DNA from: Chitinophagaceae bacterium | Lineage (GTDB): Bacteria; Bacteroidota; Bacteroidia; Chitinophagales; Chitinophagaceae | DNA: 40,750 bases | Direction of reading: 5' to 3' | Assembly: GCA_013140985.1 (NCBI GenBank) | Contig: JABFRU010000033.1 | Location: forward strand, 1-40,750 | Shown: in pieces, positions 9,893 through 32,159 of the stretch | Numbering within the stretch: the stretch's first letter is position 1 | Layout: each line of letters begins with the position of its first letter | Notes under the pieces: model-generated | Database searches by the model: none | Told to the model about the DNA's origin: nothing | What the model saw: only the letters and a program-made list of their open reading frames with translations | Translations under genes and position numbers: made by a program

Positions 9893-9954
9893 GTTTGATG
9901 TTTGATGTTTGACGTTTGATGTTAACCTCGAACATCAAACCCCGAACCTCAAAC
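9893..9954. repeat. Inverted heptamer array, element A (4+4 units, 6-base centre)
   Basis: Four tandem 7-base units of the form GTTTGAY (9893-9920) are followed by the palindrome GTTAAC (9921-9926). Four 7-base units in the opposite orientation come next, of the form NYCRAAC (9927-9954: CTCGAAC, ATCAAAC, CCCGAAC, CTCAAAC). The longest perfect pairing is GTTTGATGTT (9914-9923) with AACATCAAAC (9931-9940). The array occupies nearly the whole gap between the GMC gene and its small-subunit partner, so the shared transcript would fold into a hairpin just before the second start codon. Confidence 0.8.
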
Positions 9955-9960
9955 TGGTTT

Positions 9961-11709
9961 CTATAAGTTCTGTTTCTTCATCTCATCAACAATATATTCT
10001 GATGCCCGCATACTTAGCGCCAATATCGTCCAGGTGATATTTTTATCGGCTTGCGAAACAAATTGTCCGCCATCCACACAAAAAACATTTTTGCAATCAT
10101 GCGCCTGGCTCCATTTATTCAGGGCTGAGCTTTTTGCATCATTACCCATTCTTACTGTTCCGGCCTCATGGATGATCTCGCCGGGCTTGGCCAGGCCCCA
10201 TTGATTCTTTTCATCATCATCGCCGCCCCAGGTAATGATAGCACCCATGTTATGCATCACTTCTTTGAAAGTTTCTTTCATGTGTTTGGCCTGTTTTACC
10301 TCATGCTCACTCCATTTTACATTGAATTTTAAAACAGGTATGCCGAATTTGTCAACCATATTCGGATCTATCTCACAATAATTGCTTTCCAATGGTATCG
10401 CCTCACCACGACCAGCCATACCCACACCACAACCAAAAAAATGACGATAATCTTCTTTGAGTGAAGCGCCATAGCCACCCGGTTCTTTTTGTTTTCCTTT
10501 CACTACATATTTTCCATTGAGATTTTCAATACCCCAGCTAAATCCATACGATGGCTGACTCATGCCGCCCCAGTATTCGATATGATAACCTCTCGGGAAA
10601 TCCAGTTTTTTATTATCCAGCCACCAGGGAGAATAAATATGTGCACCACCTACGCCATCTTCGTTATACTTTTTTCTGTCAAAGAGTTGCGGCAAGATCC
10701 CACCCAATGCTGCGCCGGTAGAATCATGTAAATATTTTCCTACTACATCACTGCTGTTTGCCAGGCCATTGGGATGACGCTGCGATCTTGAATTCAATAG
10801 CAACCTTGCACTTTCGCAGGCACTTGCAGCAAGGATCACTACTTTACCTTCCACCTGGTATTCCATCATATCATCTTTGCTGATATAAGAAACACCGGTT
10901 GCCAGTCCTTCATTATTCGTCAACACTTCTCTTGCCATGGCATTCGATAGCACATCCACATTGCCTGTTGCGATAGCAGGATAAATTAAAACATTGGGAG
11001 AGGAGAAATCGGCTTTTGCCATGCTGCAATTGCGGTTACATTGTCCGCAGAAAAAACAAACTCCTCTTTCTGCATCATTCTCTATTTTTTCTGTCAAAAT
11101 AGAAAGTCGGGAAGGAATAACTTTTACCCCGGCCTGCGTTGCCGCATTTTTGATAAAGAGTTCATGCAGTCTCGGTTTGGGTGGTTTCAGAAAAAAGCCA
11201 TCGGGGTCATTTTCCAAACCTTCATTGGTACCGAATATGCCGATCATTTTATCTACCCTGTCATAATAAGGTTTGATATCGTCATAGCTGATCGGCCAGT
11301 CATCGCCAAGGCCATCAATACTTCTTCTTTTAAAATCTTTAGGACCAAAGCGCAATGAAATTCTTCCCCAATGATTCGTACGGCCACCGAGCATCCTTGC
11401 TCTCCACCATGCCCAATCGGTTCCTTTTTCTTTGGTGAATGGCTCTCCTTCAAGACTCCAGCCACCATAACAAGCATCAAAATCTCCGAAGGGACGAAGT
11501 TTGGTACTGGCGCCTCTTCGGGGAGATTCCCATGGATTTTTTAATTGGGTGATATTTTTTTGCGGGTCGTACATATATCCCGCCTCAATGATGCAAACTT
11601 TCAGGCCAGCTTTGGCCAATATATAGGCAGCCATACCGCCACCGGCACCCGAGCCAACGATCACCGCATCATATTTCTTTGGATTCTTTTTTATTTGTAC
11701 ATCTCCCAT
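9961..11709 (-). CDS. GMC-family FAD-dependent oxidoreductase (sugar/polyol dehydrogenase-like large subunit)
   Basis: 582 residues. The N-terminal FAD-binding motif is VIVGSGAGGG (16-25), with GGRTNHWGR at 108-116 and the C-terminal GMC signature around HEAGTVRMG and VDGGQFVSQADKN. There is no signal peptide, consistent with co-export by the Tat-signal partner downstream. Residues 218-228 read CFFCGQCNRNC, a Cx2Cx2Cx3C cluster. Bacterial FAD glucose dehydrogenase large subunits use a comparable Cys cluster to hold an iron-sulfur centre, so an Fe-S centre is likely here (inference). The substrate is unknown; gluconate, glucose, sorbose or polyols are all possible. No cytochrome c subunit is nearby, so the electron acceptor must be elsewhere. 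It is the first gene of a two-gene unit. Confidence 0.88.
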   Translation of the reverse strand: MGDVQIKKNPKKYDAVIVGSGAGGGMAAYILAKAGLKVCIIEAGYMYDPQKNITQLKNPWESPRRGASTKLRPFGDFDACYGGWSLEGEPFTKEKGTDWAWWRARMLGGRTNHWGRISLRFGPKDFKRRSIDGLGDDWPISYDDIKPYYDRVDKMIGIFGTNEGLENDPDGFFLKPPKPRLHELFIKNAATQAGVKVIPSRLSILTEKIENDAERGVCFFCGQCNRNCSMAKADFSSPNVLIYPAIATGNVDVLSNAMAREVLTNNEGLATGVSYISKDDMMEYQVEGKVVILAASACESARLLLNSRSQRHPNGLANSSDVVGKYLHDSTGAALGGILPQLFDRKKYNEDGVGGAHIYSPWWLDNKKLDFPRGYHIEYWGGMSQPSYGFSWGIENLNGKYVVKGKQKEPGGYGASLKEDYRHFFGCGVGMAGRGEAIPLESNYCEIDPNMVDKFGIPVLKFNVKWSEHEVKQAKHMKETFKEVMHNMGAIITWGGDDDEKNQWGLAKPGEIIHEAGTVRMGNDAKSSALNKWSQAHDCKNVFCVDGGQFVSQADKNITWTILALSMRASEYIVDEMKKQNL

Positions 11710-11784
11710 ACAGCAGTTTTAGGATTGATGCAACAATTTACCGGGATTTTTTTTAATGGGTGGGTTTCTTATTAATATTTCTGC

Positions 11785-11847
11785 ACACAGGGGGCACGGA
11801 GTACACGGAGATATTTGAGTTCCCTGTGCTCTCTGTGTACTCTGTGT
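11785..11847. repeat. Inverted nonamer array, element D (3+3 units, 9-base centre)
   Basis: Three tandem 9-base units (ACACAGGGG, GCACGGAGT, ACACGGAGA; 11785-11811), a 9-base centre (11812-11820), then three 9-base units in inverted orientation (11821-11847). CACGGAGTACACGGAG (11795-11810) faces CTCTGTGTACTCTGTG (11831-11846); the two differences from perfect complementarity become G-U pairs in RNA. It lies in the divergent region between the GMC gene and the pullulanase gene. Confidence 0.8.
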
Positions 11848-11856
11848 GATTGTATT

Positions 11857-11864
11857 TATCTTTA
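11857..11864 (+). promoter_or_regulatory. Possible promoter -7 element for pullulanase
   Basis: TATCTTTA matches 7 of 8 positions of the Bacteroidota TAnnTTTG element, 20 bases before the ATG at 11885 and just after element D. No clear upstream TTG box. Confidence 0.35.
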
Positions 11865-11884
11865 GACCTTCAACTATTTCATCC

Positions 11885-13855
11885 ATGAAGAAAGGATTTA
11901 TGCTGCTGAGTTTTATACTACAGTTGTTTGCAGGCAAAGCACAGAAGACGGATTATAGTAAGTATCCTGTTTATACCGGTAATGACCTCGGGTTGACCTA
12001 TTCAAAAACCAGATCTGTCTTTAAGATCTGGGCACCTACTGCTGAAGAAGTTGAGTTGAAAATATATCCGGAAAATTCAGAAAGTATGGGACGAAAGGAA
12101 ATCATGCAAAAAAGTAATAATGGGACATGGATCGCAACAATTATGGGAGATTACAAAGAAAGCATGTATACTTTTAGTGTAAAGATCAACGGGAAATGGT
12201 TGGATAATGTTCCTGATCCTTATGCAAAAGCCGTCGGCATCAATGGCAAAAGGGCAATGGTGATCGATTTGAAAGAAACAAATCCTCCGGGATGGTCAAC
12301 CGATAAAAGCCCTGCTTTCAAAAACCCAACCGATGCGATCATATATGAATTGCATGTAAGAGATGCAAGCATAGCTGCTAATTCAGGAATAAAGAACAAA
12401 GGGAAGTTTATTGGACTGGCTGAGAAAGGAACCAAGAATACGACTGGCTTATCAACGGGACTTGATCATTTAAAAGAATTGGGAGTTACACATATTCATT
12501 TACTGCCATCTTATGATTATAATTCAGTGGATGAAACCAAACCGGATGCAAAATATAACTGGGGCTATGATCCGCTGAACTATAATGTGCCCGAAGGCTC
12601 TTATTCCACCAATGCATATGATGGGGTAACAAGGATCAAAGAATTCAAACAGCTCATTCAAACATTTCATCAGAACGGATTGAGAGTGGTGATGGATGTG
12701 GTGTATAATCATACGGCGCTGACAGAAAATTCCAATTTTAATCAACTCGTTCCCGGTTATTATTACCGGCAAACAAAAGATGGAAAATTTTCCAATGCCA
12801 CTGCCTGCGGTAATGAAACAGCGAGTGAAAGACCGATGTTCAGAAAATTCATGCTCGAGTCAATGATGTATTGGGTAAAGGAATATCATATTGATGGGTT
12901 CCGTGTTGACCTGATGGGCGTGCATGATATTGAAACGATGAACCTCATTTCCCGGGAGCTGCACAAAATAAAACCCGATATATTATTATATGGTGAAGGA
13001 TGGACAGCCGGGGCATCGCCATTGCCCGATTCAGTAAGAGCATTAAAGGCGAATGCTTATAAACTCGATCGTATCGCTGTCTTCAGTGATGATATAAGAG
13101 ATGGAATAAAAGGTCATGTGTTCACCCATGATGCAAAAGGTTTTGCTACCGGGCAAACCGGAACGGAAGAAAGCATAAAGTTTGGTATTGTTGCTTCTGT
13201 CAAACATCCGCAGGTGGATTACAGCAAAGTAAATTATTCCAAAGCGCCGTATGCTGCCCAGCCTTATCATACCGTTACTTATTGTGAGTGCCACGATAAT
13301 CATTGTCTCAAAGACCGCATTGATCTTTCTGCAAAAGATGCCAGCGAAGCAGATAAAAGAAAAATGTATAAACTGGCATTATCCATTGTGCTTACATCCC
13401 AGGGAATAAGTTTTCTTCATGCAGGTACAGAATTCATGCGAAACAAAAAAGGAGTGGAGAATAGTTTTGAATCACCCGATAGTATCAATGCTATTGATTG
13501 GGACCTGAAATCTGCCAATAAAGATGTATTTGATTATGTAAAAGCATTGATCAGCATACGTAAACAACATCCTGCATTCAGAATGATGGATGCAAGGCAA
13601 GTCGCTGCCAATATTGTTTTTGATGCACAAACTGTTCCGGGTGTTGTCACTTATACTATCAATGGTGCTGTAGTAAATGATAAATGGAAGAAAATAAAAA
13701 TTTGTTTGAATGGAACTGCGGAACAGCAAATGGTAGAGTTAGGTCCGAAAGAATGGAAGACTGCTGTGCTAAACAATCAGGCATTTACCAATGTGCCGGT
13801 TTCAGGAAAGTTCCAGGTATGGCCTTATAGCTGTTCCATTTTTTACCAGGAATGA
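11885..13855 (+). CDS. pulA: Secreted type I pullulanase (CBM48 + GH13)
   Basis: 656 residues from the ATG at 11885. An upstream in-frame ATG at 11846 adds 13 residues and would bury the signal peptide, so I reject it. Signal peptide about 1-19. An N-terminal beta-sandwich (about 30-130, SVFKIWAPTAEEVELKIY) is CBM48-like. The GH13 barrel carries YNWGYDP (224-230), the signature of type I pullulanases. It also has DVVYNH (271-276), the nucleophile Asp342 in GFRVDLMG, the acid/base Glu371 in LLYGEGW, and Asp471 in HDNH. It should cut alpha-1,6 branches of pullulan, glycogen or starch limit dextrins in the periplasm or outside. It stands alone with no SusCD genes nearby, and ends directly against the next gene on the opposite strand. 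Confidence 0.93.
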   Translation: MKKGFMLLSFILQLFAGKAQKTDYSKYPVYTGNDLGLTYSKTRSVFKIWAPTAEEVELKIYPENSESMGRKEIMQKSNNGTWIATIMGDYKESMYTFSVKINGKWLDNVPDPYAKAVGINGKRAMVIDLKETNPPGWSTDKSPAFKNPTDAIIYELHVRDASIAANSGIKNKGKFIGLAEKGTKNTTGLSTGLDHLKELGVTHIHLLPSYDYNSVDETKPDAKYNWGYDPLNYNVPEGSYSTNAYDGVTRIKEFKQLIQTFHQNGLRVVMDVVYNHTALTENSNFNQLVPGYYYRQTKDGKFSNATACGNETASERPMFRKFMLESMMYWVKEYHIDGFRVDLMGVHDIETMNLISRELHKIKPDILLYGEGWTAGASPLPDSVRALKANAYKLDRIAVFSDDIRDGIKGHVFTHDAKGFATGQTGTEESIKFGIVASVKHPQVDYSKVNYSKAPYAAQPYHTVTYCECHDNHCLKDRIDLSAKDASEADKRKMYKLALSIVLTSQGISFLHAGTEFMRNKKGVENSFESPDSINAIDWDLKSANKDVFDYVKALISIRKQHPAFRMMDARQVAANIVFDAQTVPGVVTYTINGAVVNDKWKKIKICLNGTAEQQMVELGPKEWKTAVLNNQAFTNVPVSGKFQVWPYSCSIFYQE

Positions 13856-14116
13856 TCAGCCGGTCTTTCCCTCATCAACTCTTTTTCCGATAAAATAGCC
13901 GGTAGCTGTTCCGACTATTGTTCCAACAGCTATCCATACTGCCGAGCCTGAAGCAAAAAAACCTATTGCAAAACCTACTACAAAACCGGCAATGGCAAAC
14001 ATCCACCTGCCGCTGACCTTGTTTCTTGCTGCAGAAGCTGCAACATGGGAATCATGAGAGCTTTTGAATTGCCTGAGATGTTGCTTATGTTTTTTGCGGT
14101 GATGTGAACGGGCCAT
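13856..14116 (-). CDS. Small glycine-zipper membrane protein, unknown function
   Basis: 86 residues from the ATG at 14116. A longer frame starting at 14209 has an unlikely Phe/Cys-rich beginning. The first 40 residues are strongly basic (MARSHHRKKHKQHLRQFKSSH). Two hydrophobic segments with GxxxG spacing follow (about residues 44-60 and 62-77). The short tail GKRVDEGKTG is charged. The layout suits a small inner-membrane protein with two helices packed through glycine zippers. It converges on the pullulanase gene with no space between the two stop codons. Confidence 0.6.
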   Translation of the reverse strand: MARSHHRKKHKQHLRQFKSSHDSHVAASAARNKVSGRWMFAIAGFVVGFAIGFFASGSAVWIAVGTIVGTATGYFIGKRVDEGKTG

Positions 14117-14312
14117 GACTTTTTGTTTGAGAAGGTAAGAAGAATTGGGGATTTTATAAAAACAAATGCAGAAGCCTGTGGCTTGGTGGAAGAATACAAA
14201 ATCCGGCAACAGAAGATGACCTGTCTAAAAAATATACTGTCTTTTTGATTACAAGCTGATTCGTTGCGTTGACCTATTTCTGTAATATGTTTTATACACA
14301 AAAAAAATATAC

Positions 14313-14786
14313 ATGAAAAACAAAATCATCCTTGTCGGCTTCTTTGCATTATCACTACTTTCCTGCAGCAAATCTGATGATGATGCCAGTAGCAGTGGTA
14401 ATATAACGGTTATCCCGGCTTCTGCAGTACCTGCAACTATTATGACCACTTTTAACAACAACTTTCCCGGAGCCAGCCAGGTGGAATGGCAGCGCAATGG
14501 CAGCAACAACAGTGTTGGCAGTGACTTCAACCAGAACAGTCAACGTCACCATGCCGGTTTTGATGACAGTGGCCATCAATCATCTCATTCTATCATTTGC
14601 CTGGAAGCGCCTGTACCACAGGTAGTGCTGGATGCATTCCGTTCTAATTTTCCCACAGACAGTGTTTATGAATGGAAATTAAGAAACGACGGCACATGGA
14701 GAGCTCATATAATGAGGGGCAGTATAAAATATGAAGCTACTTTCAGTGCTTCAGGTTCATTGATCAAATTTGAACGGTCAAAATAA
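14313..14786 (+). CDS. PepSY-like (beta-lactamase-inhibitor-like) lipoprotein
   Basis: 157 residues. The lipoprotein signal ends in LLSC (Cys18), followed by SKSDDDAS. This acidic stretch resembles the Bacteroidota lipoprotein export signal, so surface exposure is possible. Two related units follow: VPATIMTTFNNNFPGASQVEW (about 40-60) and VPQVVLDAFRSNFPTDSVYEW (about 101-121). Each has a helix, then a Trp and a beta hairpin, the pattern of the PepSY-like/BLIP-like family found in Bacteroidota lipoproteins. The first unit lacks most of its hairpin and has instead an Asn/Ser/His-rich stretch (62-90). Ligand unknown. A strong terminator follows. Confidence 0.75.
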   Translation: MKNKIILVGFFALSLLSCSKSDDDASSSGNITVIPASAVPATIMTTFNNNFPGASQVEWQRNGSNNSVGSDFNQNSQRHHAGFDDSGHQSSHSIICLEAPVPQVVLDAFRSNFPTDSVYEWKLRNDGTWRAHIMRGSIKYEATFSASGSLIKFERSK

Positions 14787-14803
14787 TCAAAAGATATTCC
14801 TGT

Positions 14804-14840
14804 AAAACCGTTTCGTTGCGGCGAAACGGTTTTCTTATTT
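14804..14840. terminator. Bidirectional terminator
   Basis: Perfect 12-bp stem (AAAACCGTTTCG at 14804-14815, complement at 14822-14833) with a 6-base loop. It separates the plus-strand lipoprotein gene from the minus-strand gene whose stop codon is at 14835. Confidence 0.92.
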
Positions 14841-15830
14841 ACTATTCACTGCCGCTGAATATGGATTGATTGTTACACTAACAGAAAAACTTCCATTTTT
14901 CAGTGATTGGATATTCCGGGTGATCTCAAATATACCTGAAGGCGCATCTGTTTTGGGAACAATAGTTATTTGATGTGTATTGCCACCTTCAAGAGTGATG
15001 ACAGAAGGACTTGTATTGGTAATGGTAACAGGAATTTTTTCTTCCAGCCCTTCCAGTCCACTTATTTTGATATGAACCAGGGTTTTTTCGCCACGACGAA
15101 GGTTGGTTTTATCAGCTGTCAGATCCAGTTTTAATATATTGACTGGTGATGTTTGTGTGGTTCCCTTCTCTTTACATTCTATTGTTACCTTACCGGTGAA
15201 TTTCTCCGGTGATTTAAAAAACAATTGAGAAGTTGATTCAGCAAGCAATTCGGTTTTTTCTCCGTTGATCATTACAGAAGTATTGCTGATATTCCCGTCA
15301 AAACTTCCTGTTATCGTAGCCGCATCGCCGGATACAGCATATGGTGGAATAGTAAAACTATTTTTGACTATGTAAGCATTTGTTATGCTAAGCTGACCGG
15401 TTTTTACTGTTTCCCCCGTACTGTTCTTTAGTTGCAATACTGTTGTGCCGTTGCCGGAAGTTGCGGGTAATTGTAATTGAAAAGAACCTCTTTGCAGGGG
15501 AATATTCAACTCCCCAAGGCTTAGGTGATAGGATTGCAATACAGTTAAATTTCTGCTGCTGTCTTTTGATAACCTGCCGCCGGGTTCCAAATATACAGTG
15601 CCTGATACAACAGCTCCTGGTGAAAGCGGAGGCAAATAGACAGTGATCTTTCCTTCTTTGGTATCAAAAGTTTGAATGATGAGCCGGTCGTTTTGTTTTT
15701 CTGTATTTATATTTCCCAATACTTTGGCTTCAACACTTGCCAAATTGATATTATCCCATAGCGACTGTGCCTGCATCCTGCTAAGCGGGAGCAGAAAAAC
15801 AACTACAAATATTTTTACGGTCATTCTCAT
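14835..15830 (-). CDS. Secreted beta-rich protein, second gene of a coupled pair; unknown function
   Basis: 331 residues with a signal peptide 1-22 (ending MQAQ). The rest is almost all beta-strand in pattern. A stretch around 68-84 (LPPLSPGAVVSGTVYLEP) precedes an Ig-like domain at about 150-215 (ITGSFDGNISNTSVMINGEK). A second Ig/CARDB-like domain sits at about 235-325 (LTADKTNLRRGEKTLVHIKI). It has no catalytic motif I recognise. Its start codon overlaps the stop of the upstream 651-residue gene (TAATG), so the two proteins are translated together and probably act together at the cell surface or in the periplasm. Confidence 0.7.
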   Translation of the reverse strand: MRMTVKIFVVVFLLPLSRMQAQSLWDNINLASVEAKVLGNINTEKQNDRLIIQTFDTKEGKITVYLPPLSPGAVVSGTVYLEPGGRLSKDSSRNLTVLQSYHLSLGELNIPLQRGSFQLQLPATSGNGTTVLQLKNSTGETVKTGQLSITNAYIVKNSFTIPPYAVSGDAATITGSFDGNISNTSVMINGEKTELLAESTSQLFFKSPEKFTGKVTIECKEKGTTQTSPVNILKLDLTADKTNLRRGEKTLVHIKISGLEGLEEKIPVTITNTSPSVITLEGGNTHQITIVPKTDAPSGIFEITRNIQSLKNGSFSVSVTINPYSAAVNSK

Positions 15831-17785
15831 TAGTTCATTGCATTAACTACCGGTATCATTTTCTCCATCACATTATCAAGAAGTTTGAAATCGCCTTTTG
15901 CTGCACATTCCCCGGCGGCTTTCTGCAAAGCTTCCAACTGTGCCATCAAAGGCGCATTCTTTGGATTGTTCATAAGTACAGCAACCTGGTTTAATATTTT
16001 AGCCAGGTAGTTACGCAACGCCTGCTGGTAAGCGGGGCCCTGGTTATGTTCATCTGCCCTTGCCAGGTGCGATAATATGAGCATGGCATTTACCCAGCCC
16101 TGTCCATTGGTAGCAGCAGGAAGTCCATTTGCCATTGCTGTTAATTGCCCCGGCGACAAATAAGGTGGTGCAGAGAATTCATGCATCTTGCCATCACAAA
16201 ACATGCTTACATCGAATACACATTTTTCTTTATCAATACTGATGAATACGGACATTTCTTTACCATTCACCTGTTTGGAAAAGCTGAAACCATAATATCT
16301 TGACATATTGGGGTCAGTAGAAACACCGCCCATGCCGATGCTCCGGGTGCTGTGGAATTCTGAAAGGTTTCCTTTGCTTAAACCAGACTGTGCCATAGTG
16401 ATGAGTTCAGAGAAAACCTGGTCATCACTGAGGTTGCAGAAAATGACTTCGAGATTAAAACCAAAATCGAATGATTGGTAACCACAATCTTTGGATTCAA
16501 ACCAAAAAGTGTTATCACTGATCTGTGCATAGCCATCTTTAAAACCAAACCTCAATAGCCCATTGTTTTTTCTCCGGATACTGTCGCAGCAATTATTTTT
16601 TTCAGTGAAATGAATGATCCTTTTTTCAACACCTTTGCCGCAGGGTTTATTTGCACATTCACATTCATATTCTGCTTCAAATTCCATGTAACCAGGATCC
16701 CGCATATTGACCTCCAGCGGCCGTTGCCACCATAGCGAGCCGGAATGAGAGTAATATTTATAATGTGGAGTATATCTTATTTTCACAAACGTATTAGGCT
16801 TGCATTCATCCGGGCAGTTACACCTGATGACCGGCGGTTCAAATGTCAGCATATTGGCCATCCAGGGGACCGAGTCTTTTGTAATTTCTTTTCCTGTTTC
16901 TTTATCTATGATACGCATAGGCGTCACTACTTCACATTTGGTGCAGTCGCAGGGTTTTACATCAGGGCCGCTAACGGTTGGTGTAAATGGTTTGTCCTCA
17001 GGTTTTGAAGGGACATTCAATACTTTGGCCTCTGTTCCTACTGCCTGGAAAGTATTCCAGAAATCATCGATGCCTTTATCAATTTTTTCTTTTTGTTCCT
17101 TGGGAAGAGTGATGGGTTTTATGTTATTCTTTTCTTCAAACTGCTCATAGGTTCGTGTAATAAATTGTTCTTTGGTATAAGGTTTCTTTCTTAATTCAGA
17201 AGTATATATCCAGAATGTTTGTTGTATCACAGCTTCTCTTTCTTTTTCCGGTGATCCTGAAAAGGGGGTAGTGATCTTTCCCTCGGTTTTTAATTTATCA
17301 TACCGATCGCTTATCCCATTCAATGCCTGCAGCAGATAAGGCGCCATCTCGGCCGGTTTTGTATCGGGATCAAGCCTTAGCTGAAACGGCGGAGGTTGCC
17401 CGCCGGTATTTTCATCTATTTTGATCCATTCAGTGATCGGTTTGAAATTAGTTTTTTCATCAACAGGTGGCTTAGTGATGTCGGCGCAAAAACCCTGCAG
17501 GTTTATTTTAATGGTTTGGCCCGCCGGAACCGTTACCGGTTGTTTTAAAGTTATATACGGCTGGTACTGGCCGCCTGATGGTATAAAGTAAGGACCTAAT
17601 GAAACTTTCACTTCCCTGTCCGAAGGATTATAAATGGTCATTGCAACAATATCCCCGGTTGTTTTGCCGGTGCCGGTAGCGGTGATGGTCATCGCCCCGA
17701 TTTGTGCCCTGACAAATGTTGATGACAGCAGGCAGGCTATGGATAAAAAAATAGGTATCCTGCTCTTGAGAAATAAATTTTTCAT
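15830..17785 (-). CDS. Large secreted Cys-rich protein, first gene of a coupled pair; unknown function
   Basis: 651 residues from the ATG at 17785. A more upstream ATG at 17821 adds 12 residues before the signal peptide. Signal peptide about 1-28 (ending FVRAQ). An N-terminal beta domain (about 29-105, YNPSDREVKVSLG then LQGFCAD) is followed by a charged helical region (145-250). Four short Cys clusters come next: CDCTKC (279-284), CNCPDEC (322-328), CECANKPC (375-382) and CC (399-400). The C-terminal 150 residues are helical. The clusters could bind metal or form disulfides; export favours disulfides. I recognise no family. It is coupled to the 331-residue gene by a TAATG overlap. Confidence 0.7.
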   Translation of the reverse strand: MKNLFLKSRIPIFLSIACLLSSTFVRAQIGAMTITATGTGKTTGDIVAMTIYNPSDREVKVSLGPYFIPSGGQYQPYITLKQPVTVPAGQTIKINLQGFCADITKPPVDEKTNFKPITEWIKIDENTGGQPPPFQLRLDPDTKPAEMAPYLLQALNGISDRYDKLKTEGKITTPFSGSPEKEREAVIQQTFWIYTSELRKKPYTKEQFITRTYEQFEEKNNIKPITLPKEQKEKIDKGIDDFWNTFQAVGTEAKVLNVPSKPEDKPFTPTVSGPDVKPCDCTKCEVVTPMRIIDKETGKEITKDSVPWMANMLTFEPPVIRCNCPDECKPNTFVKIRYTPHYKYYSHSGSLWWQRPLEVNMRDPGYMEFEAEYECECANKPCGKGVEKRIIHFTEKNNCCDSIRRKNNGLLRFGFKDGYAQISDNTFWFESKDCGYQSFDFGFNLEVIFCNLSDDQVFSELITMAQSGLSKGNLSEFHSTRSIGMGGVSTDPNMSRYYGFSFSKQVNGKEMSVFISIDKEKCVFDVSMFCDGKMHEFSAPPYLSPGQLTAMANGLPAATNGQGWVNAMLILSHLARADEHNQGPAYQQALRNYLAKILNQVAVLMNNPKNAPLMAQLEALQKAAGECAAKGDFKLLDNVMEKMIPVVNAMN

Positions 17786-21815: not shown

Positions 21816-21835
21816 CGCCACAATTCAAAAGCTAT

Positions 21836-23014: not shown

Positions 23015-23015
23015 A

Positions 23016-23643: not shown

Positions 23644-23654
23644 CCCGGGAGTAT

Positions 23655-24758: not shown

Positions 24759-24911
24759 ATTGGATATTTTGGTTTCTTCGAAAAAAAGCAACCCGAAAAC
24801 TACAAAACAGAGTAAACCCGGTCAATGAAATCGAAGATTTTTCTGCCAACTGGTATTTTAACAAGTAATTGTTCCTGTAAAATAAAAGTATATTTACTTC
24901 TTTAAGCCTTT

Positions 24912-25424
24912 ATGATCAATATCCGCTTCTGTACCACTGAGGATGCAGCCCTGGTAGCCGATATGAGCCGGCAAACCTTTTATGAAACTTTTGCGTCAGA
25001 GAATTCGGCTGAGAACATGGATAAGTTCATGCAGACACAGTTTAGCCGTGAAGTACTGGTAAAAGAAGTGGGAGCGGGGGGCGATATTTTTTTCCTTGCT
25101 TATGATGATGAAAAACCCGTTGGTTATGTAAGAATGCGGGAAGGTGATAAGCTGCCGGAATTAGGAAATAGGAGAACTATTGAGATTGCCCGCATCTATG
25201 CTGTTATGGATTCAATAGGAAAAGGAGTAGGCAGTGTATTAATGCAAAAATGTATTGAGGTGGCATTGGAAAGAAATAAAGAGGTGATCTGGCTGGGTGT
25301 TTGGGAAAAAAATAAAAGGGCCATTGATTTTTATACCCGCTGGGGATTTGAAAAATTCAGTACCCATGTTTTTATGCTGGGTGATGATCCTCAAACTGAC
25401 TGGTTGATGAAAAAAGAATTGTAA
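24912..25424 (+). CDS. GNAT-family N-acetyltransferase (PaiA-like)
   Basis: 170 residues. The acetyl-CoA motif A is IARIYAVMDSIGKGVGSVLM (about 94-113), with the SIGKGVG pyrophosphate loop. Motif B follows in IWLGVWEKNKRAIDFYTRWGF. The N-terminal MINIRFCTTEDA and the FYETFASEN segment resemble PaiA-type spermidine/spermine acetyltransferases, but the substrate cannot be told from the sequence. Cytoplasmic. The next gene begins 17 bases downstream in the same direction, so the two may share a transcript. Confidence 0.85.
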   Translation: MINIRFCTTEDAALVADMSRQTFYETFASENSAENMDKFMQTQFSREVLVKEVGAGGDIFFLAYDDEKPVGYVRMREGDKLPELGNRRTIEIARIYAVMDSIGKGVGSVLMQKCIEVALERNKEVIWLGVWEKNKRAIDFYTRWGFEKFSTHVFMLGDDPQTDWLMKKEL

Positions 25425-25441
25425 TTTGTGACCAATTTACT

Positions 25442-26044
25442 ATGACCCATTCGAGAAAGCTTCTTAGTTGTTTGTTGTTCCTTATCGTTGCTGCAGGTAT
25501 TTCTTCTGCACAGGAACAAAAGATGGCCATCCGTGTTTCGCAGGATGATGCCGTTACACTGACCGAATTTGAATCGACGATCAAGCTCAAAAAGAAGTCT
25601 TTTAAATTCCAGGTAATGCTGAAGAATGTGGAAGGTGTTTATGTTTTTGCCAGTATCAGAGATTCAGTTTACCGGTTTACCGAAAACGGACCTATCCAGG
25701 ATTTTATCTACCTGCCTCTTTTGAAATTAAAAGACGATGAATTCAATCGTCTCAAGGAACTGAATATCAGCGAAACAGGGTGGTCTTATTGGTATTATAC
25801 TCCAACTGCAGAAACACATTCATTTGCCAGGAAAGTAACAAATATTGACACTAATACTTATATCTGTTCCAAGATCATCAAAGAATTCTATGATGTAGCT
25901 GACAACTTCAACATTAAGATCCGCGACATAGATAAGCCTCTGTATGTTTTTTTCATTGCCGTTGCTGATTATGATGATACCGGCCGGCCTTTGAAGGAGT
26001 TGATACGTCGCAAAGTAAAGATCGAGTGGACGGATGACGAATAG
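25442..26044 (+). CDS. Secreted protein of unknown function
   Basis: 200 residues with a signal peptide of about 24 residues (hydrophobic core LLSCLLFLIVAAG, ending SSAQ). The mature part is mixed alpha/beta, with a conserved-looking beta start (FKFQVMLKNVEGVYVFASI) and an acidic C-terminus (IEWTDDE). It has no lipobox: the Cys in LLSC is followed by hydrophobic residues, inside the core. No family recognised. Probably co-transcribed with the acetyltransferase gene 17 bases upstream. Confidence 0.65.
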   Translation: MTHSRKLLSCLLFLIVAAGISSAQEQKMAIRVSQDDAVTLTEFESTIKLKKKSFKFQVMLKNVEGVYVFASIRDSVYRFTENGPIQDFIYLPLLKLKDDEFNRLKELNISETGWSYWYYTPTAETHSFARKVTNIDTNTYICSKIIKEFYDVADNFNIKIRDIDKPLYVFFIAVADYDDTGRPLKELIRRKVKIEWTDDE

Positions 26045-26247
26045 AATAACTACTGCCCTTCAACTGTCGTAAAGCTCCCACCAGCTTTGTATATTTTCCT
26101 GCAAGACAGGTACTAAAACTTTCTGTAATACGTTTAGGTCATATTCATTCAAACAATTTTTTTGAAAAAATGACAGGACATTAAACTATTTAGCTCGTTT
26201 ATCGTCTATTGTCCGTCAGTAACCAATTCTTCAATAAAACCCCTTTT

Positions 26248-27177
26248 ATGAAAGCCCGGATTCTCTCATTAACCGCACTCATTTTCTCTTTAAGTTTTTT
26301 GATCGTATCCTGTCAAAAAGATGCCAGCGATGATCAAACCGATTATTCAGCTGAAACAGCTACGCATTCCGATGATGATTCCCGTTTTGCCGATGAGTCA
26401 GATGCAGCCTCTGATGATGTTCTCGGCCAGTTGGAATTCAATATTGGTTTCAGTGGCCGCGGCGGACAAGTGCAAACTATTTGCGATGCTACTGTGGTTG
26501 TTGATACATTGAGCAATCCCCGCACTATCACTATTACTTTTAATGGTACTCCTTGTTTACCCGGTCGTACCCGTACAGGTGTTATCGTTGTATCAATGGC
26601 ACAGAACATCCGCTGGAGAGATGCCGGTGCCGTTATTAATGTAACGTTCCAGAACTTCAGGATCACAAGAACCAGGGATAATAAGAGTATCACTTTTAAC
26701 GGTACCCAGGCCTATACCAATGTAAGTGGTGGTTTACTTATCAACCTGCCGACATTAAATACGATCACTCATACTATCACCAGCAATAACATGTCCATTA
26801 CATTTGATAATGGCAGCCAGCGTACATGGAGTGTAGCAAGAAGAAGAGTGTTCACTTATAATAATGGCGTGGTAGTTACCGTTACCGGCATGCATTCACA
26901 AGGCGGAATTACCGGTATTGCTGAATGGGGTACTAACCGTTTTGGCCGCAATTTCACAACTGCTATTACGCAGCCGGTTGTAAGACGCCAGGATTGCAGC
27001 TTCAGGGTTGGCAGTGGGAAAGTTACACATACCACGCCTGCATTCACAGCTTCTGCAACTTTCGGTTTGGATGCAACAGGTAATCCAACAGGATGTCCCG
27101 GTGCGAATCCTTATTACCTGAAAGCAGAGTGGACCCGTCCTAATGGAACTACCTATTCAACATTGATACCTTATTAA
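26248..27177 (+). CDS. Lipoprotein of unknown function
   Basis: 309 residues from the ATG at 26248. The frame extends to 26209, but the later ATG gives a proper lipoprotein signal ending IVSC (Cys22). The first 40 residues after the Cys are rich in Asp and Ser (QKDASDDQTDY), an acidic stretch like the Bacteroidota surface-lipoprotein export signal. The remainder is beta-rich with many Thr and Asn (ITITFNGTPCLPGRTRTG, ITFDNGSQRTW), suggesting a beta-sandwich or beta-prism. Four Cys in the mature part could form disulfides. No known family. A strong terminator follows. Confidence 0.7.
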   Translation: MKARILSLTALIFSLSFLIVSCQKDASDDQTDYSAETATHSDDDSRFADESDAASDDVLGQLEFNIGFSGRGGQVQTICDATVVVDTLSNPRTITITFNGTPCLPGRTRTGVIVVSMAQNIRWRDAGAVINVTFQNFRITRTRDNKSITFNGTQAYTNVSGGLLINLPTLNTITHTITSNNMSITFDNGSQRTWSVARRRVFTYNNGVVVTVTGMHSQGGITGIAEWGTNRFGRNFTTAITQPVVRRQDCSFRVGSGKVTHTTPAFTASATFGLDATGNPTGCPGANPYYLKAEWTRPNGTTYSTLIPY

Positions 27178-27209
27178 AAATTAAAGCGATTTACATTTTA
27201 TGTATAGTG

Positions 27210-27244
27210 AACCGTCTCGCCTTAGGCGAGACGGTTTGTTTTTT
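27210..27244 (+). terminator. Rho-independent terminator
   Basis: Perfect 12-bp stem AACCGTCTCGCC (27210-27221) with its complement at 27225-27236 and a TTA loop, then TGTTTTTT. It isolates hutI from the lipoprotein gene. Confidence 0.93.
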
Positions 27245-27278
27245 ATGGCACTTGGATATTTACAAGTAAATTAGCGGC

Positions 27279-28511
27279 ATGTCTTCTGTTATTATTGAAA
27301 ACATCAAACTGCTTGTAAATACAAGAGAAGAAAGCAAACTGCTTAGAAGAAAAGAATTGGCCCATCTTCCCTGCATTGAAAATGCTTATATCATTGTTGA
27401 AGACGGTATCATTGCTGAGTACGGCCCGATGGCTGCATTGAAGAAGACAGATACCAACAGTATTGATGCTTCCGGTCAATACATACTTCCCTGCTGGTGC
27501 GATTCGCATACACATTTGGTTTTTGCAGCTTACCGTGAAGAAGAATTTGTTGATAAGATAAAGGGATTGAGTTATGCAGAGATAGCAGCAAAAGGCGGAG
27601 GCATACTTAATTCTGCTAAAAAACTAAATGAAACGTCGGAAGCAGAATTATTGCGAATCGCTATGATCCGTTTGAATGAAGTGATGCGTTCAGGAACCGG
27701 CGCTATAGAAATAAAAAGTGGCTATGGACTTTCAGTGGAAGGAGAATTGAAAATGCTTCGGGTCATCAAAAAATTAAAAGAACTGTCACCTATTCCAATT
27801 AAAGCAACATTTCTTGGTGCACACACTTATCCGGTTGAATATAAAGAGAACCATCAGGGATATATTGATTGTATTATTAATGAAATGATGCCGGTGATCG
27901 CCAAAGAAAAATTAGCCGATTATATTGATGTGTTTTGTGAAACAGGATTTTTTTCGTCGGACGAAACAGAAACGATCTGCAAGGCAGGAATGAGTTATGG
28001 ATTGAAACCAAAGATACATGCGAACCAATTGAATTTATCCGGAGGCGTGGAAACAGGCGTTCAACTCGGGGCTTTATCCGTTGATCATTTGGAAACGATG
28101 AATGATGCAGCTATTCAAACGCTGGCTGGTTCAAATACCATTGGAACGTTATTACCCACAGCTGCTTTCTTTTTACGAATGCCTTTTCAACCAGCAAGGC
28201 AATTGATCGATGCCGGCTGTGCCATTGCATTGGCCAGCGATTTTAACCCCGGTTCATCCCCGTCAGGTAATATGAACCTGGTTGTTGCCATGAGTTGTAT
28301 TCAAATGAAAATGCTTCCGGAAGAAGCGATCAATGCGGCGACCCTCAATGGCGCTTATGCAATGGAACTCCAGGATGAAGTAGGAAGTATTACCGTTGGT
28401 AAAAAAGCCAATCTTATAGTAACCAAACAAATTCCTTCACTGGCTTACCTGCCTTATGCTTTTGGATCGAATTGTATTGACAAAGTGATGATATCCGGAG
28501 AGTGGATCTAA
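27279..28511 (+). CDS. hutI: Imidazolonepropionase
   Basis: 410 residues, the normal length. It hydrolyses 4-imidazolone-5-propanoate to N-formimino-L-glutamate in histidine breakdown. Amidohydrolase metal ligands are visible: His77 and His79 in CDSHTHLVF, His247 in KIHANQL, and Asp321 in ASDFNPGSSPSGNM. His182 lies in FLGAHTYP. No hutH, hutU or hutG genes are in the window. The gene is followed directly by a 94-base heptamer element and then shikimate genes in the same orientation, an unusual neighbour. A terminator upstream indicates its own promoter in 27245-27278, which I cannot pinpoint. Confidence 0.95.
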   Translation: MSSVIIENIKLLVNTREESKLLRRKELAHLPCIENAYIIVEDGIIAEYGPMAALKKTDTNSIDASGQYILPCWCDSHTHLVFAAYREEEFVDKIKGLSYAEIAAKGGGILNSAKKLNETSEAELLRIAMIRLNEVMRSGTGAIEIKSGYGLSVEGELKMLRVIKKLKELSPIPIKATFLGAHTYPVEYKENHQGYIDCIINEMMPVIAKEKLADYIDVFCETGFFSSDETETICKAGMSYGLKPKIHANQLNLSGGVETGVQLGALSVDHLETMNDAAIQTLAGSNTIGTLLPTAAFFLRMPFQPARQLIDAGCAIALASDFNPGSSPSGNMNLVVAMSCIQMKMLPEEAINAATLNGAYAMELQDEVGSITVGKKANLIVTKQIPSLAYLPYAFGSNCIDKVMISGEWI

Positions 28512-28605
28512 ATTATTTACGAATGATGATTTTGGATTTACGATTTGTTTAAGTACGGTATTGTATGCAGAAATCGTAAATCGTAATTCGTATTTCGTAA
28601 TTTGC
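28512..28605. repeat. Inverted heptamer array, element B (5+5 units, 24-base centre)
   Basis: Five 7-base units (28512-28546: ATTATTT, ACGAATG, ATGATTT, TGGATTT, ACGATTT), a 24-base centre (28547-28570), and five inverted 7-base units (28571-28605: AAATCGT twice, AATTCGT, ATTTCGT, AATTTGC). GATTTACGATTT (28535-28546) pairs perfectly with AAATCGTAAATC (28571-28582). The element starts at the base after the hutI stop codon and ends at the base before the ATG of the next gene, filling the gap exactly. Confidence 0.8.
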
Positions 28606-29697
28606 ATGATGCAATCAACAGAGCAAGAAATAAATGAAGTGACGCAAGTTGCATGGAATAAGCGACCATTGATAATTAGCGGACCCTGCAGCGCAGAAAC
28701 AGAAGAGCAGATGCTGGCAACAGCACAACGTTTAGCTGCTATTAATAAAGTTGATGTATTAAGAGCCGGTATCTGGAAACCGAGAACCAAGCCCGGTATG
28801 TTTGAAGGCGTAGGTGCAAAAGGATTGCCCTGGCTGCAACAGGCAAAAAAAATAACCGGTCTGCCGACAACAGTGGAAGTAGCAACGGCCAAACAAGTGC
28901 AGGATGCATTGACCTTTGATGTTGACATTTTATGGATCGGTGCAAGAACAACAGTGAACCCTTTTAGTGTGCAGGAAGTTGCCGATGCATTGCGGGGAGT
29001 GAATGTGCCGGTGCTCATCAAAAACCCGATCAATCCTGATCTTGAATTGTGGGGTGGCGCTGTGGAAAGAGTGGCGAGGGCAGGTGTAAAACAAATTGGT
29101 TTGATCCACCGGGGATTTTCTTCTTATGGAAATACTGAATACCGCAATGCGCCTATGTGGCACCTGGCTATTGAAATGAAATTGAAATATCCCGGTATGC
29201 TTTTTATTAATGATCCATCGCATATCTGCGGACGCAGGGATATTTTGCTCGATACAATGCAGAAAGCCATTGATCTTGATTATGACGGACTGATGATTGA
29301 AAGTCATATCGACCCGGATAATGCATGGAGTGATGCAAATCAACAAGTAACACCGGAAGTTTTAAAAGAAATGCTGGATACGATCATCTGGAGAAAAGAA
29401 GATATCAATTCAGACGAATTTCATGCGGCATTGGAGAAATTACGCCAGCAGATCAATCAACTGGATGATGAACTTATGCAGATACTCGGTCAGCGGATGA
29501 GGATCGCTGAACAAATCGGTAAGTATAAGAAGGAAAATAATATTACGATCCTGCAAACCAACCGCTGGAACGAGATCATTGAAAGGGCTACGCAAAAAGG
29601 TGATAAGATCGGGCTGAGTAAGGAATTCATCACTAAATATTTTGATGCTGTGCACATGGAAAGTATCAATCACCAGAAGAAGATAATGGATAGCTAA
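28606..29697 (+). CDS. aroG: Bifunctional DAHP synthase / chorismate mutase
   Basis: 363 residues from the ATG at 28606; a second ATG follows at once. An in-frame TTG at 28561 lies inside the repeat and is rejected. The N-terminal 265 or so residues are a KDO8P-synthase-like (type I beta) DAHP synthase with SGPCSAET and RAGIWKPRTKPGMFEGVG. It condenses phosphoenolpyruvate and erythrose-4-phosphate. The C-terminal 90 residues (KLRQQINQLDDELMQILGQR, then IGKYKKEN) are an AroQ-type chorismate mutase making prephenate. In related fusions the mutase domain can also give feedback control. No Shine-Dalgarno is present because the repeat abuts the start. The symbol aroG is a convenience; such fusions carry various names. 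Confidence 0.92.
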   Translation: MMQSTEQEINEVTQVAWNKRPLIISGPCSAETEEQMLATAQRLAAINKVDVLRAGIWKPRTKPGMFEGVGAKGLPWLQQAKKITGLPTTVEVATAKQVQDALTFDVDILWIGARTTVNPFSVQEVADALRGVNVPVLIKNPINPDLELWGGAVERVARAGVKQIGLIHRGFSSYGNTEYRNAPMWHLAIEMKLKYPGMLFINDPSHICGRRDILLDTMQKAIDLDYDGLMIESHIDPDNAWSDANQQVTPEVLKEMLDTIIWRKEDINSDEFHAALEKLRQQINQLDDELMQILGQRMRIAEQIGKYKKENNITILQTNRWNEIIERATQKGDKIGLSKEFITKYFDAVHMESINHQKKIMDS

Positions 29698-29732
29698 AAC
29701 CCCGTGAGCGGTCGCAGACCCTGATGGCGGTT
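29697..29732 (+). repeat. Dispersed 36-base dyad, copy 2
   Basis: AAACCCCGTGAGCGG ... CCCTGATGGCGGTT matches the element at 21631-21666 at 30 of 36 positions. Unlike copy 1 it has no T-tail, and it lies between two pathway genes, overlapping the last base of the upstream stop codon and ending 13 bases before the aroB ATG. Confidence 0.75.
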
Positions 29733-29745
29733 CCAATAAATACTA

Positions 29746-30765
29746 ATGAAGAAACTAACGTATAAATTTTCCAATTCGTCAACAGATATCTACCTGGCTT
29801 ATGGCATCAGTCATTTGAAAAAAATAACTGATCCTTCTTCCACTATATTGATAACAGACCGGAATGTTTATAATGCCCATGCAAAAAGATTCAAAGACTG
29901 GGATACGATCATTTTAAAACCGGGAGAAGAATTCAAAGTGCAGGCGACTGTTGATGCAGTAATTGAAAAGCTCATTGAAATGGAAGCCGACCGGGAAACA
30001 ACATTAGTTGGCATTGGCGGTGGTGTGATCACTGACATTACCGGTTATGTGGCTTCTGTTTATATGCGGGGAATACGATTTGGTTTTTTACCTACTTCAG
30101 TATTGGGTTTAGTAGATGCTTCTATTGGTGGTAAAAATGGAATTGATGCAGGTGTATATAAAAATATGGTAGGAGTTATCCGGCAACCTGCATTCATTTT
30201 ACATGATATGATCTTCCTGAATTCACTGCCACAGGAAGAATGGGAAAATGGTTTTGCAGAAGTGATCAAACATGCCTGTATAAAAGATTCGGCGATGTTC
30301 AACGAACTGGAGACAAATTCTTTGAAGACATACCAGTCAAAACAAAAATCAATTTGTGAATTAGTTCAGAAGAATGCTATTCTCAAAACCAAAGTGGTGC
30401 AGAAAGATGAATTTGAGAAAGGAGAAAGGCGGTTGTTGAATTTCGGTCACACAGTAGGTCATGCATTGGAAACACAATATGAGTTGTTGCACGGACAAGC
30501 TATTGCTATTGGTATAACCTATGCCTGTCATATTTCAGAGCAATTGACAGGATTCAAGCAAACAGAAAGAGTAGTTGGTCTTTTAGAAAGATACAATCTT
30601 CCCACTTATGCTTCTTTTGATAAGCAAAAAGTTTTTGATGTATTGAAGATGGATAAGAAGCGGGAAAGAAAAGAAATGAATTATGTGTTGCTGGAAAGAA
30701 TAGGAAAGGGAGTGGTGAAAAAAATTCCGCTTAAACAATTGGAGAAGTTCATTCAATATCTATAA
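29746..30765 (+). CDS. aroB: 3-dehydroquinate synthase
   Basis: 339 residues. It converts DAHP to 3-dehydroquinate, using NAD and a divalent metal. Visible motifs: the NAD-binding GIGGGVITDITGYVAS (89-104), the FLPTSVLGLVDASIGGKNGID block (114-134), and metal ligands Glu172 (AEVIKH), His235 (NFGHTVGHALE) and His249. It is slightly shorter than the typical 350-360. It lies between the DAHP synthase gene and aroA; the aroA GTG follows after 3 bases, so the two are probably translationally coupled. Confidence 0.95.
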   Translation: MKKLTYKFSNSSTDIYLAYGISHLKKITDPSSTILITDRNVYNAHAKRFKDWDTIILKPGEEFKVQATVDAVIEKLIEMEADRETTLVGIGGGVITDITGYVASVYMRGIRFGFLPTSVLGLVDASIGGKNGIDAGVYKNMVGVIRQPAFILHDMIFLNSLPQEEWENGFAEVIKHACIKDSAMFNELETNSLKTYQSKQKSICELVQKNAILKTKVVQKDEFEKGERRLLNFGHTVGHALETQYELLHGQAIAIGITYACHISEQLTGFKQTERVVGLLERYNLPTYASFDKQKVFDVLKMDKKRERKEMNYVLLERIGKGVVKKIPLKQLEKFIQYL

Positions 30766-30768
30766 TTA

Positions 30769-32082
30769 GTGAAAGTAACCATACATCCATCACAATTAAA
30801 AGGAAATGTGCAGGTCCCGCCATCCAAAAGCTATACACAACGGGCATTGGCAGCTGCTTTATTGAGGAAAGGCGAAACGATCATTTATAATGCAGGAAAA
30901 AGTAATGATGATCTTGCTGCTTTACATATCATCCGGCAGCTCGGGGCAAAAATTTCTGAGCAGGACGATGGAATTAAGATCGTCAGTAATGGTGATGTAA
31001 GAATAGAAGGTGATGCCGAAATAAATTTCGGAGAAAGTGGCCTGGGAGCAAGGATGTTTACACCCATTATTTCATTGTCAGGACAAAAAGTTGTTCTGAA
31101 TGGGGAGGGAAGTCTTTTAAAAAGACCCATGTCTTTTTTTGAAGAAGTGCTGCCGGAATTTGGAATAAGGGTTAAGACAGAAAATGGTAAATTACCAATA
31201 ACGATCCGCGGGAAATTTAATGCAAAGAAAGCGGTTGTTGATAGCAGATTGGTGAAGTCTGGCCCGGGTGCTAAAATGATCATTGATGGATCGTTAAGTT
31301 CTCAGTTTCTCACAGGCTTATTGTTTGCATTGAGTAAATCACCGGAGCCGGTAGTGATATCAGTAAAGAATCTTGTCAGCGCTAATTATATTGATATTAC
31401 AATAAAAGTACTTGAGCAGTTTGGTCTTGCTTCAGTTTCTAATACTTTTAGATACGAACGATTGGTGATACAAAGCAAACAACCTGTACCAGGAGTGCTT
31501 GAGTACACTGTAGAAAATGATTGGAGCAGTGCGGCCTTCTTGTTAGTAGCCGGGGCAATAGCAGGCCCGATAACAATAAGAGGTCTGGACCTGAATTCTG
31601 TGCAGGCGGATAAAGCGATCATTGATGTATTAATATCAGTGAATGCCGGTATTGCTATCGAAGCAAAAGGGATAAAAATTCATCCATCACCGATGAAAGC
31701 TTTTGATTTTGATGCAACAAATTGTCCTGATCTTTTTCCTCCGCTGGTTGTGTTGGCTGCATATTGTGACGGCCGATCACATATTAAAGGTGTAAATCGT
31801 TTAGCACATAAAGAAAGCAACAGGGCCATTGCATTACAGAAGGAATTTGGAAAAATGGGAGTGAAGATCGAATTGAATGATGATATAATGATCATCCATG
31901 GTGGTAAGGGAGTGAAAGGAGCTACTGTTCATTCCAGTTATGATCATCGTATTGCTATGGCTTGTGCCGTGGCGGCATTAAAAGCAGAAGGAACAACCAC
32001 TATTGAAGAAGCGGGAGCGATCAAAAAATCTTATCCTGGTTTTTATAATGATTTGAAAAGCCTCGGTGCTGATGTATCTTAG
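30769..32082 (+). CDS. aroA: 3-phosphoshikimate 1-carboxyvinyltransferase (EPSP synthase)
   Basis: 437 residues, with a GTG start 3 bases after the aroB stop. It transfers the enolpyruvyl group of PEP to shikimate-3-phosphate. Conserved: Lys20 in PPSKSYTQR, Arg95, KESNR (for the usual KETDR), and DHRIAMA near the C-terminus. The PEP loop differs from E. coli NAGTAMRP: it reads ESGLGARM (89-96), so the Thr97 equivalent is Leu92 and the Pro101 equivalent is Met96. Changes at these two positions are known to lower glyphosate binding in other EPSP synthases; whether this holds here is inference. The catalytic residues look intact, so I expect an active enzyme. Confidence 0.93.
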   Translation: MKVTIHPSQLKGNVQVPPSKSYTQRALAAALLRKGETIIYNAGKSNDDLAALHIIRQLGAKISEQDDGIKIVSNGDVRIEGDAEINFGESGLGARMFTPIISLSGQKVVLNGEGSLLKRPMSFFEEVLPEFGIRVKTENGKLPITIRGKFNAKKAVVDSRLVKSGPGAKMIIDGSLSSQFLTGLLFALSKSPEPVVISVKNLVSANYIDITIKVLEQFGLASVSNTFRYERLVIQSKQPVPGVLEYTVENDWSSAAFLLVAGAIAGPITIRGLDLNSVQADKAIIDVLISVNAGIAIEAKGIKIHPSPMKAFDFDATNCPDLFPPLVVLAAYCDGRSHIKGVNRLAHKESNRAIALQKEFGKMGVKIELNDDIMIIHGGKGVKGATVHSSYDHRIAMACAVAALKAEGTTTIEEAGAIKKSYPGFYNDLKSLGADVS

Positions 32083-32083
32083 C

Positions 32084-32159
32084 AGAAGCTAGTAGCCAGT
32101 AGTAAGCAGCGAGTAGGGGAGCCTTCCTGCTAGCTATTCCCTACTCGCCGTTTCCAAGT
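32084..32159. repeat. Inverted heptamer array, element C (5+5 units, 6-base centre)
   Basis: Five 7-base units (32084-32118: AGAAGCT, AGTAGCC, AGTAGTA, AGCAGCG, AGTAGGG), a 6-base centre GAGCCT, and five inverted units (32125-32159: TCCTGCT, AGCTATT, CCCTACT, CGCCGTT, TCCAAGT). The last two are degenerate. GCGAGTAGGG (32109-32118) pairs perfectly with CCCTACTCGC (32139-32148). It begins one base after the aroA stop codon and ends 20 bases before the aroC ATG. Confidence 0.75.

Follow-up and report, generated by a model that had tools for sequence, protein, structure and literature searches.

Intervening sequences (IVSs) of 23S rRNA genes were the closest described relatives found for the elements considered here, four intergenic hairpins with periodic arms (A to D) in a stretch of 40,750 nucleotides from a Chitinophagaceae bacterium (assembly GCA_013140985.1, contig JABFRU010000033.1, positions 1 to 40,750; hereafter the window), and for related hairpins elsewhere in the same genome. 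According to the accessible sections of PMC4990558, the IVS of Coxiella burnetii comprised 428 nt with an S23 open reading frame (ORF) and a 28-bp terminal stem, carried tandem GACAGAT heptamers upstream of the ORF (2 or 3 depending on the strain), was excised by RNase III, and was termed a 'selfish element' in the abstract of the paper; as far as those sections go, this one IVS was the only published link to heptamers found. The present elements resembled it in having an S23 ORF in the full-size element (16/16 by reading, 15/16 by score) and terminal inverted repeats forming a stem. They differed in location, as the IVS lies inside the 23S rRNA gene whereas A to D and the full-size element L052 lay between protein-coding genes, and also in having many unit families, common ORF-less hairpins (44 in 526 kb) and a second kind with a GxxExxY gene.

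Other described systems were more distant. Repetitive extragenic palindromic (REP) sequences and REPINs are palindromes of 20-40 bp tagged with GTAG or CGTC and associated with Y1 transposases (RAYTs; PMC3733652, accessible part). They were similar in being dispersed intergenic hairpins with a single candidate cognate protein family, and different in that the present arms had multiple units, the proteins were S23 or GxxExxY, and no Y1 gene carried the same repeat. The TAACTGA heptamer repeats of Beggiatoaceae, Cyanobacteria and Bacteroidetes, with 169 direct sets and one indirect set in the genome described, were likewise intergenic and frequently right upstream of start codons; however, they were direct arrays of one unit sequence, and the accessible part of PMC4679880 contained no S23 link. 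Two tandem TAACTGA units, the sole unit tested, did not occur in the window when up to 2 mismatches were allowed, nor as exact matches in 384 loci. Cyanobacterial short tandemly repeated repetitive sequences are heptamer repeats as well, and the original prediction for this window, made from the sequence alone, was right that such direct repeats do not describe the class. S23 proteins were distant relatives of Avd of diversity-generating retroelements, which works with a reverse transcriptase; one of three S23 proteins of this genome that were scanned weakly matched the NCBIfam Avd model (E 2e-4), falling far short of the cut-off of that model. In a comparison with miniature inverted-repeat transposable elements of DDE transposons, A and C shared arms with ORF-bearing elements of their own genome, and that ORF was no known transposase. 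A search of the open-access literature, in which a subscription paper could be missed, recognised no account of the hairpin class.

The hairpins are likely to represent two related kinds of small mobile element resembling IVSs, as copies that lack the ORF. In a full-size element, one small ORF would be enclosed by an array of short tandem units on either side, the two arrays being inverted relative to each other. In the first kind, to which A, B and C would belong, an S23 four-helix-bundle protein would accompany 7- or 8-nt units; in the second, to which D would belong, a GxxExxY protein, assigned by its Pfam name to the PD-(D/E)XK nucleases, would accompany loose 8-10-nt CACRGAG-like units.

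On contig 36, one pair of A-family arrays enclosed an ORF of the S23 (23S_rRNA_IVP) four-helix-bundle family, and therefore all S23 matches in the genome were examined. Profiles matched S23 (PF05635) 16 times, Y1 transposase (PF01797) 5 times and GxxExxY (PF13366) 10 times at 9 loci, the last family having been included as a further lead. Inverted arrays of 7-8-nt units surrounded all 16 S23 genes as judged by reading and periodicity. With a score of at least 16 for the inverted match between upstream and downstream flanks, inverted flanks were present at 15/16 S23 loci, 9/9 GxxExxY loci, 2/5 Y1 genes and 8/263 random genes, the latter taken from 20 stretches that included stretches chosen for A matches; of these 8, one was S23 locus L059 itself and one was flanked by periodic 9-mers. 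Mismatched pairs of upstream and downstream flanks passed the score in 13/240 and 3/72 cases. The best lag of the S23 arms was 7 (10 loci), 14 (3 loci) or 8 (3 loci; p ≤ 0.022 in 16/16), and the GxxExxY flanks were inverted repeats made mostly of the loose CACRGAG-like units. The excess of inverted flanks around S23 and GxxExxY genes over random genes argued against slippage with template switching across a hairpin, in which no dedicated protein would take part and both genes would be mere passengers in long hairpins, an explanation that we regard as unlikely.

Full-size elements were approximately 0.5-0.6 kb where measured (L052, L058, L060), and ORFs were without internal stop in 14/16 S23 matches and at 7/9 GxxExxY loci. 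Among 35 GxxExxY proteins, residues D, ExK and Q were each conserved in 90% or more, the pattern expected of PD-(D/E)XK nucleases. A search of the PDB with the S23 profile returned the solved structures 2gsc and 2rld, and a PDB sequence search with one GxxExxY protein returned no match. The S23 protein of Xanthomonas is a homopentamer (PMC4990558, accessible sections).

Movement of the hairpins as REP or REPIN elements by a RAYT (Y1) transposase would likewise combine dispersed hairpins with one protein, and the genome contained five Y1 genes, two of them with inverted flanks. However, none of the five had significantly periodic arms (p 0.36-0.91), and two (L067 and L068) adjoined palindromes of another, REP-like kind (TGTCCCGTAGGGACA type). 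A Y1 mobiliser was thus disfavoured and is very improbable.

The arrangement recurred in several phyla. Inverted flanks were present at 18/28 S23 loci of relatives (same genus and order) compared with 26/756 mismatched pairs, and at 24/30 GxxExxY loci across Bacteroidota compared with 75/870 mismatched pairs, the loci analysed being subsets of all matches, best matches first. Mismatched GxxExxY pairs matched more often because GxxExxY units share one theme. Among named S23 loci from GTDB, a non-random sample of the best 80 of 566 confirmed matches, from one S23 subfamily and with 2 loci dropped for short flanks, inverted arms were found at 70/78 compared with 1027/6006 mismatched pairs. Of the 68 loci that had a score of at least 16 and p ≤ 0.02, 63 had 7 as their best lag. 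By their record titles, these loci belonged to Bacteroidota, Ignavibacteria, KSB1, Deltaproteobacteria and one Alphaproteobacterium.

A leader hairpin shared between left arm and ORF (GGTGAAAAAA..TTTTTCACC) was considered and proved not to be general, its pattern occurring at 1/16 S23 and 1/9 GxxExxY loci of this genome, 1/5 Y1 genes, 0/78 GTDB loci and 7/263 random upstream regions. By eye, a small A-rich/T-rich hairpin of this type was seen upstream of S23 loci L052, L061 and L065, GxxExxY locus L074 and Y1 locus L067.

The protein clade was coupled with the unit sequence. Identity between S23 proteins was correlated with array similarity over 98 loci with inverted arms, including those among the GTDB best 80 of 566 (Mantel rho 0.44, p = 0.001), and also within the genome and its relatives alone (rho 0.15, p = 0.004, n = 30). 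The test was restricted to inverted-arm loci, and L212 and L216, which are repeats of L098 and L108, were dropped there only. Clearly similar array pairs amounted to 2-11% below 40% protein identity, 25% at 40-50%, 49% at 50-60% and 79% at 60-80%. As a pattern in sequences, the coupling would fit recognition of the unit by its protein; that protein clade predicts unit sequence also speaks against slippage without a dedicated protein.

Units were shared between ORF-less and ORF-bearing elements. Of 43 ORF-less hairpins, 27 matched an ORF-bearing element from their own genome better than 40 shuffles did. Elements A to D were themselves ORF-less. Element A matched S23 element L060 best (27 vs. 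a shuffle maximum of 16), and C matched S23 elements L052 (19 vs. 13) and L214, L202 and L051 (16-15 vs. 14). The best S23 arms for B were from other genomes (16 vs. 14.5). Element D matched GxxExxY arms best (15 vs. 12) and stayed below the shuffle maximum with S23 arms (9 vs. 11.5). The matches of A, B and C to S23 arms and of D to GxxExxY arms were above all 60 shuffles, and the units of 7 or 9 bases in the original prediction therefore correspond to two protein families. Further partial copies of B occurred in the genome, and the family A pattern matched 33 times, with overlaps, at 20 array sites, compared with 4 matches of the reversed pattern. Recurrence of identical units at unlinked places again argues against slippage as the sole origin.

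The number of S23 genes and how densely lag 7-10 hairpins occurred were correlated across nine related genomes with tiny counts outside G000 (rho 0.88, p = 0.002; S23 per Mb of genome, rho 0.92). Two genomes without S23 had zero lag 7-10 hairpins in 200 kb each. Densities, calculated from 111-526 kb per genome, were 80 lag 7-10 hairpins per Mb in G000, 24 in G011, 18 in G009, 10 in G014, 5 in G008 and G013, and 0 in G002, G010 and G018. With all lags, they were 84 in G000, 32 in G011, 27 in G009, 10 in G013 and G014, 5 in G008, G002 and G010, and 0 in G018.

The hairpin class was delimited with a detector that called arms of at least 18 bases with short loops and arm periodicity at p ≤ 0.015 against shuffled arms, applied to 29 stretches of the window's own genome (525,573 bases without N) and to a dinucleotide Markov control of equal size. 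There were 112 hairpins of which 44 were periodic, compared with 28 and 0 in the control; an earlier run of the identical scan gave 43 periodic hairpins and 1 in the control. The periodic hairpins were thus beyond chance, and the original prediction was right to see a class that is uniform in architecture and varied in unit sequence, rather than copies of a single mobile repeat. The lag was 7 in 24 hairpins, 8 in 11, 9 in 6 and other in 3; units of 7 and 9 bases were as anticipated, and the restriction to odd lengths did not hold, as 8 also occurred. The density was approximately 84 periodic hairpins per Mb (74 in the window alone), which extrapolates to approximately 300 in 3.86 Mb. The density may be slightly high because some scanned stretches came from contigs in earlier hit lists: L033 was picked for a single-arm A match, and L039, L285, L286, L287 and L296 contain an S23 or GxxExxY gene.

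The expectation that unit number is equal on both arms every time failed. Array lengths of the two arms, by a crude length estimate, were equal in 13 of 44 hairpins and within one unit in 27, showed no correlation (rho -0.11), and equality was not above that of permuted arms (27%, p = 0.375). Such independent variation of the arms would agree with slippage, as would the 2 or 3 heptamers by strain in the published IVS (PMC4990558, accessible sections). Slippage alone, the first of the two routes named in the original prediction, was nevertheless disfavoured by the dispersed sequence families, the S23 and GxxExxY ORFs in full-size relatives and the visible insertion at junctions; slippage probably only tunes unit number. 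Its alternative, an enzyme, became the better lead when widened to an enzyme or a binding protein, with S23 and GxxExxY as the candidates.

Of the lag 7-10 hairpins, window included, 44/45 were outside ORFs although ORFs made up 89% of the DNA, and many were within a few bases of both adjoining genes. This position, often a few bases from stop and start codons, together with the stable RNA folds, would suit hairpins with a regulatory role in the host (as terminators, mRNA stabilisers or sites of post-transcriptional control) selected at gene junctions. However, selection against gene disruption would leave the same intergenic position, and flanking genes were codirectional at 32/44 hairpins compared with 248/371 background pairs, which is near background and gives no clear orientation preference. 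Moreover, the sites were empty in most readable congeners, and the ORF inside periodic arms would be left unexplained. A regulatory origin is accordingly judged improbable.

As read from comparisons with congeners, the elements are insertions at gene junctions. Element A was missing from 6/8 congeners with a readable gap, and the other two, G007 and G009, had hairpins with different units there (G009 confirmed by the scan, G007 by eye). Three unit families in one gap across three congeners, that of G007 by eye, would also be expected from slippage. Element C was missing from 9/10 congeners with a readable junction, and G009 had an unrelated insert. The comparison of orthologous gaps proposed with the original prediction thus found A and C absent from most readable congeners, and other unit families at the A site in two. 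The arrival of C, as judged from the junction, is what supplied EPSP (5-enolpyruvylshikimate-3-phosphate) synthase with its new stop. Element D was not seen in 7 congener stretches, in three of which the downstream gene differs, and the flanks of B were not syntenic in congeners. By eye, the insert of G009 at the C site (L182, G009:C529:8058-8736) had two ORFs and was toxin-antitoxin-like with a PIN-like second protein, outside the class.

The S23 element L052, whose S23 frame contains one stop, occupied approximately 509 bp where five congeners had 5-60 bp between matching flanks. It stood exactly between TAA and ATG, whereas stop and start overlapped (TAATG, TGATG) in G008, G009 and G004; existence of this near-exact empty site argues further against slippage. 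At the place of L058 there were 33 bp (G008) and 85 bp (G003) between the flanks, and an S23-like match in G009.

For these small, IVS-like elements, we infer a transposition chemistry in which the repeated units on a single strand of folded DNA or RNA would offer the protein a multivalent binding site, and the protein would help the hairpin to copy into new junctions, in trans also for ORF-less copies. Unit number would drift later through slippage, and copies would survive where stop and start codons remain intact. In mRNA, the stem may be an RNase III substrate, as in 23S rRNA IVSs, and the predicted folds of A to D are compatible with RNase III excision. More tentatively, and at somewhat less than even confidence, S23 and GxxExxY could define two new DNA mobility systems in many bacterial phyla, in which each clade would recognise a short tandem unit of its own on folded strands and spread hairpins with or without the gene into junctions; 23S rRNA IVSs would then be the few that happened to insert into rRNA.

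Several results weigh against reading the hairpins as members of mobile elements. Linked inheritance of gene and arms would produce the same coupling as recognition. In the shuffle test, 16/43 hairpins matched no ORF-bearing element of their own genome, B among ORF-bearing elements of its own genome having no significant match. Arm periodicity of the own GxxExxY loci reached p ≤ 0.05 in just 4/9, with a non-periodic inverted repeat at L074. Scores were below the threshold at 10/28 S23 loci of relatives and 6/30 GxxExxY loci. The density correlation came from few genomes and small counts, and G008 had 11 S23 matches yet 1 hairpin in 194 kb. Compared with G008, G009 and G004, L052 had at most one extra A, with no target duplication established, and the congener comparisons revealed no transposition or movement. 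S23 is not known to have a catalytic site.

If this reading holds, S23 and GxxExxY, small families whose function is unknown and which had 16 and 10 matches here, respectively, would gain a context. One architecture would explain scattered heptamer and nonamer repeats, and the IVSs of 23S rRNA might prove to be a small part of a large class of elements. Repeats and proteins that had been orphans would thereby be linked with the known rRNA intervening sequences, and the pairing of clade and unit makes recognition directly testable.

Coordinates and settings of A to D are in Table 1. The four intergenic hairpins with periodic arms in the original prediction exist as judged by pairing and folding, and their units do differ, as had been described. 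Paired bases per arm were 24/31 for A, 24/30 for B, 19/25 for C and 20/28 for D, and the z-scores of RNA folds against shuffled sequences on the two strands were -5.9/-6.1, -5.6/-5.1, -2.6/-3.6 and -4.1/-3.4, respectively. When the window was scanned blind for periodic hairpins, three (A, B and D) were recovered, compared with 1 hairpin in its Markov copy; C was missed and was detected as an inverted repeat only. Elements A and B exemplify the class better than C and D do. All four were intergenic and approximately 5-36 bases upstream of a start codon (start codons being assumed), close to the 0-37 bases given originally. The neighbouring genes were all ordinary, gluconate 2-dehydrogenase subunit 3 being the product of the Gluconate_2-dh3 gene. 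No Rfam family reached the gathering threshold in the window.

Table 1. Periodic hairpins of the window and the gene junctions in which they lie (DAHP, 3-deoxy-D-arabino-heptulosonate 7-phosphate).
Feature	Coordinates	Strand	Description	Basis
Element A	9893..9954	.	(GTTTGAN)4 - GTTAAC - 4 inverted units	sequence, pairing, folding
A, left arm	9893..9920	+	four GTTTGAY heptamers	
A, right arm	9927..9954	-	four inverted GTTYGRN heptamers; base 7 independent of left arm	
A, setting			74-base gap between GMC oxidoreductase stop (9961, -) and Gluconate_2-dh3 start (9886, -)	
Element B	28517..28600	.	AAATCGT-type heptamer arms 28517-28546 and 28571-28600, 24-base centre	
B, setting			between amidohydrolase stop (28511) and DAHP synthase start (28606)	
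Element C	32081..32163	.	AGTAGNN heptamer arms, 32094-32118 paired with 32139-32163	
C, setting			between EPSP synthase and chorismate synthase; junction gives EPSP synthase a new TAG stop	
Element D	11784..11848	.	degenerate ACACGGAGW nonamer arms, scan lag 9	
D, setting			between divergent GMC oxidoreductase (start 11709, -) and alpha-amylase-family gene (start 11885, +)	

Single-arm arrays of the A family were also present within genes of this genome (L003, L004, L005, L012, L013, L015, L019, L020 and L026). In 9/9 examined, the array was part of a 221-597-aa open frame antisense to GTTTGAN and encoded a QTSNFKPQTSN-like insert; annotation is affected, as such arrays in open frames encode inserted QTSNFKP-like peptides. 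The host gene at L019 was presumably YggS, and at L004 a second heptamer family (TTCTGAC) followed the GTTTGAN array in one shared open frame. At L039, two separate 9-mer hairpins (GTCAAATNN; 8766-8868 and 7681-7816) enclosed a minus-strand gene, which we take to be rhomboid-like, and no cognate ORF was found for this family. A palindrome array of the GCCCCATGGGGC type was located upstream of DAHP synthase in G009 (L196). Approximately three tandem 87-base repeats occurred at 36804-37102 of the window, in the ORF at 36117-37520.

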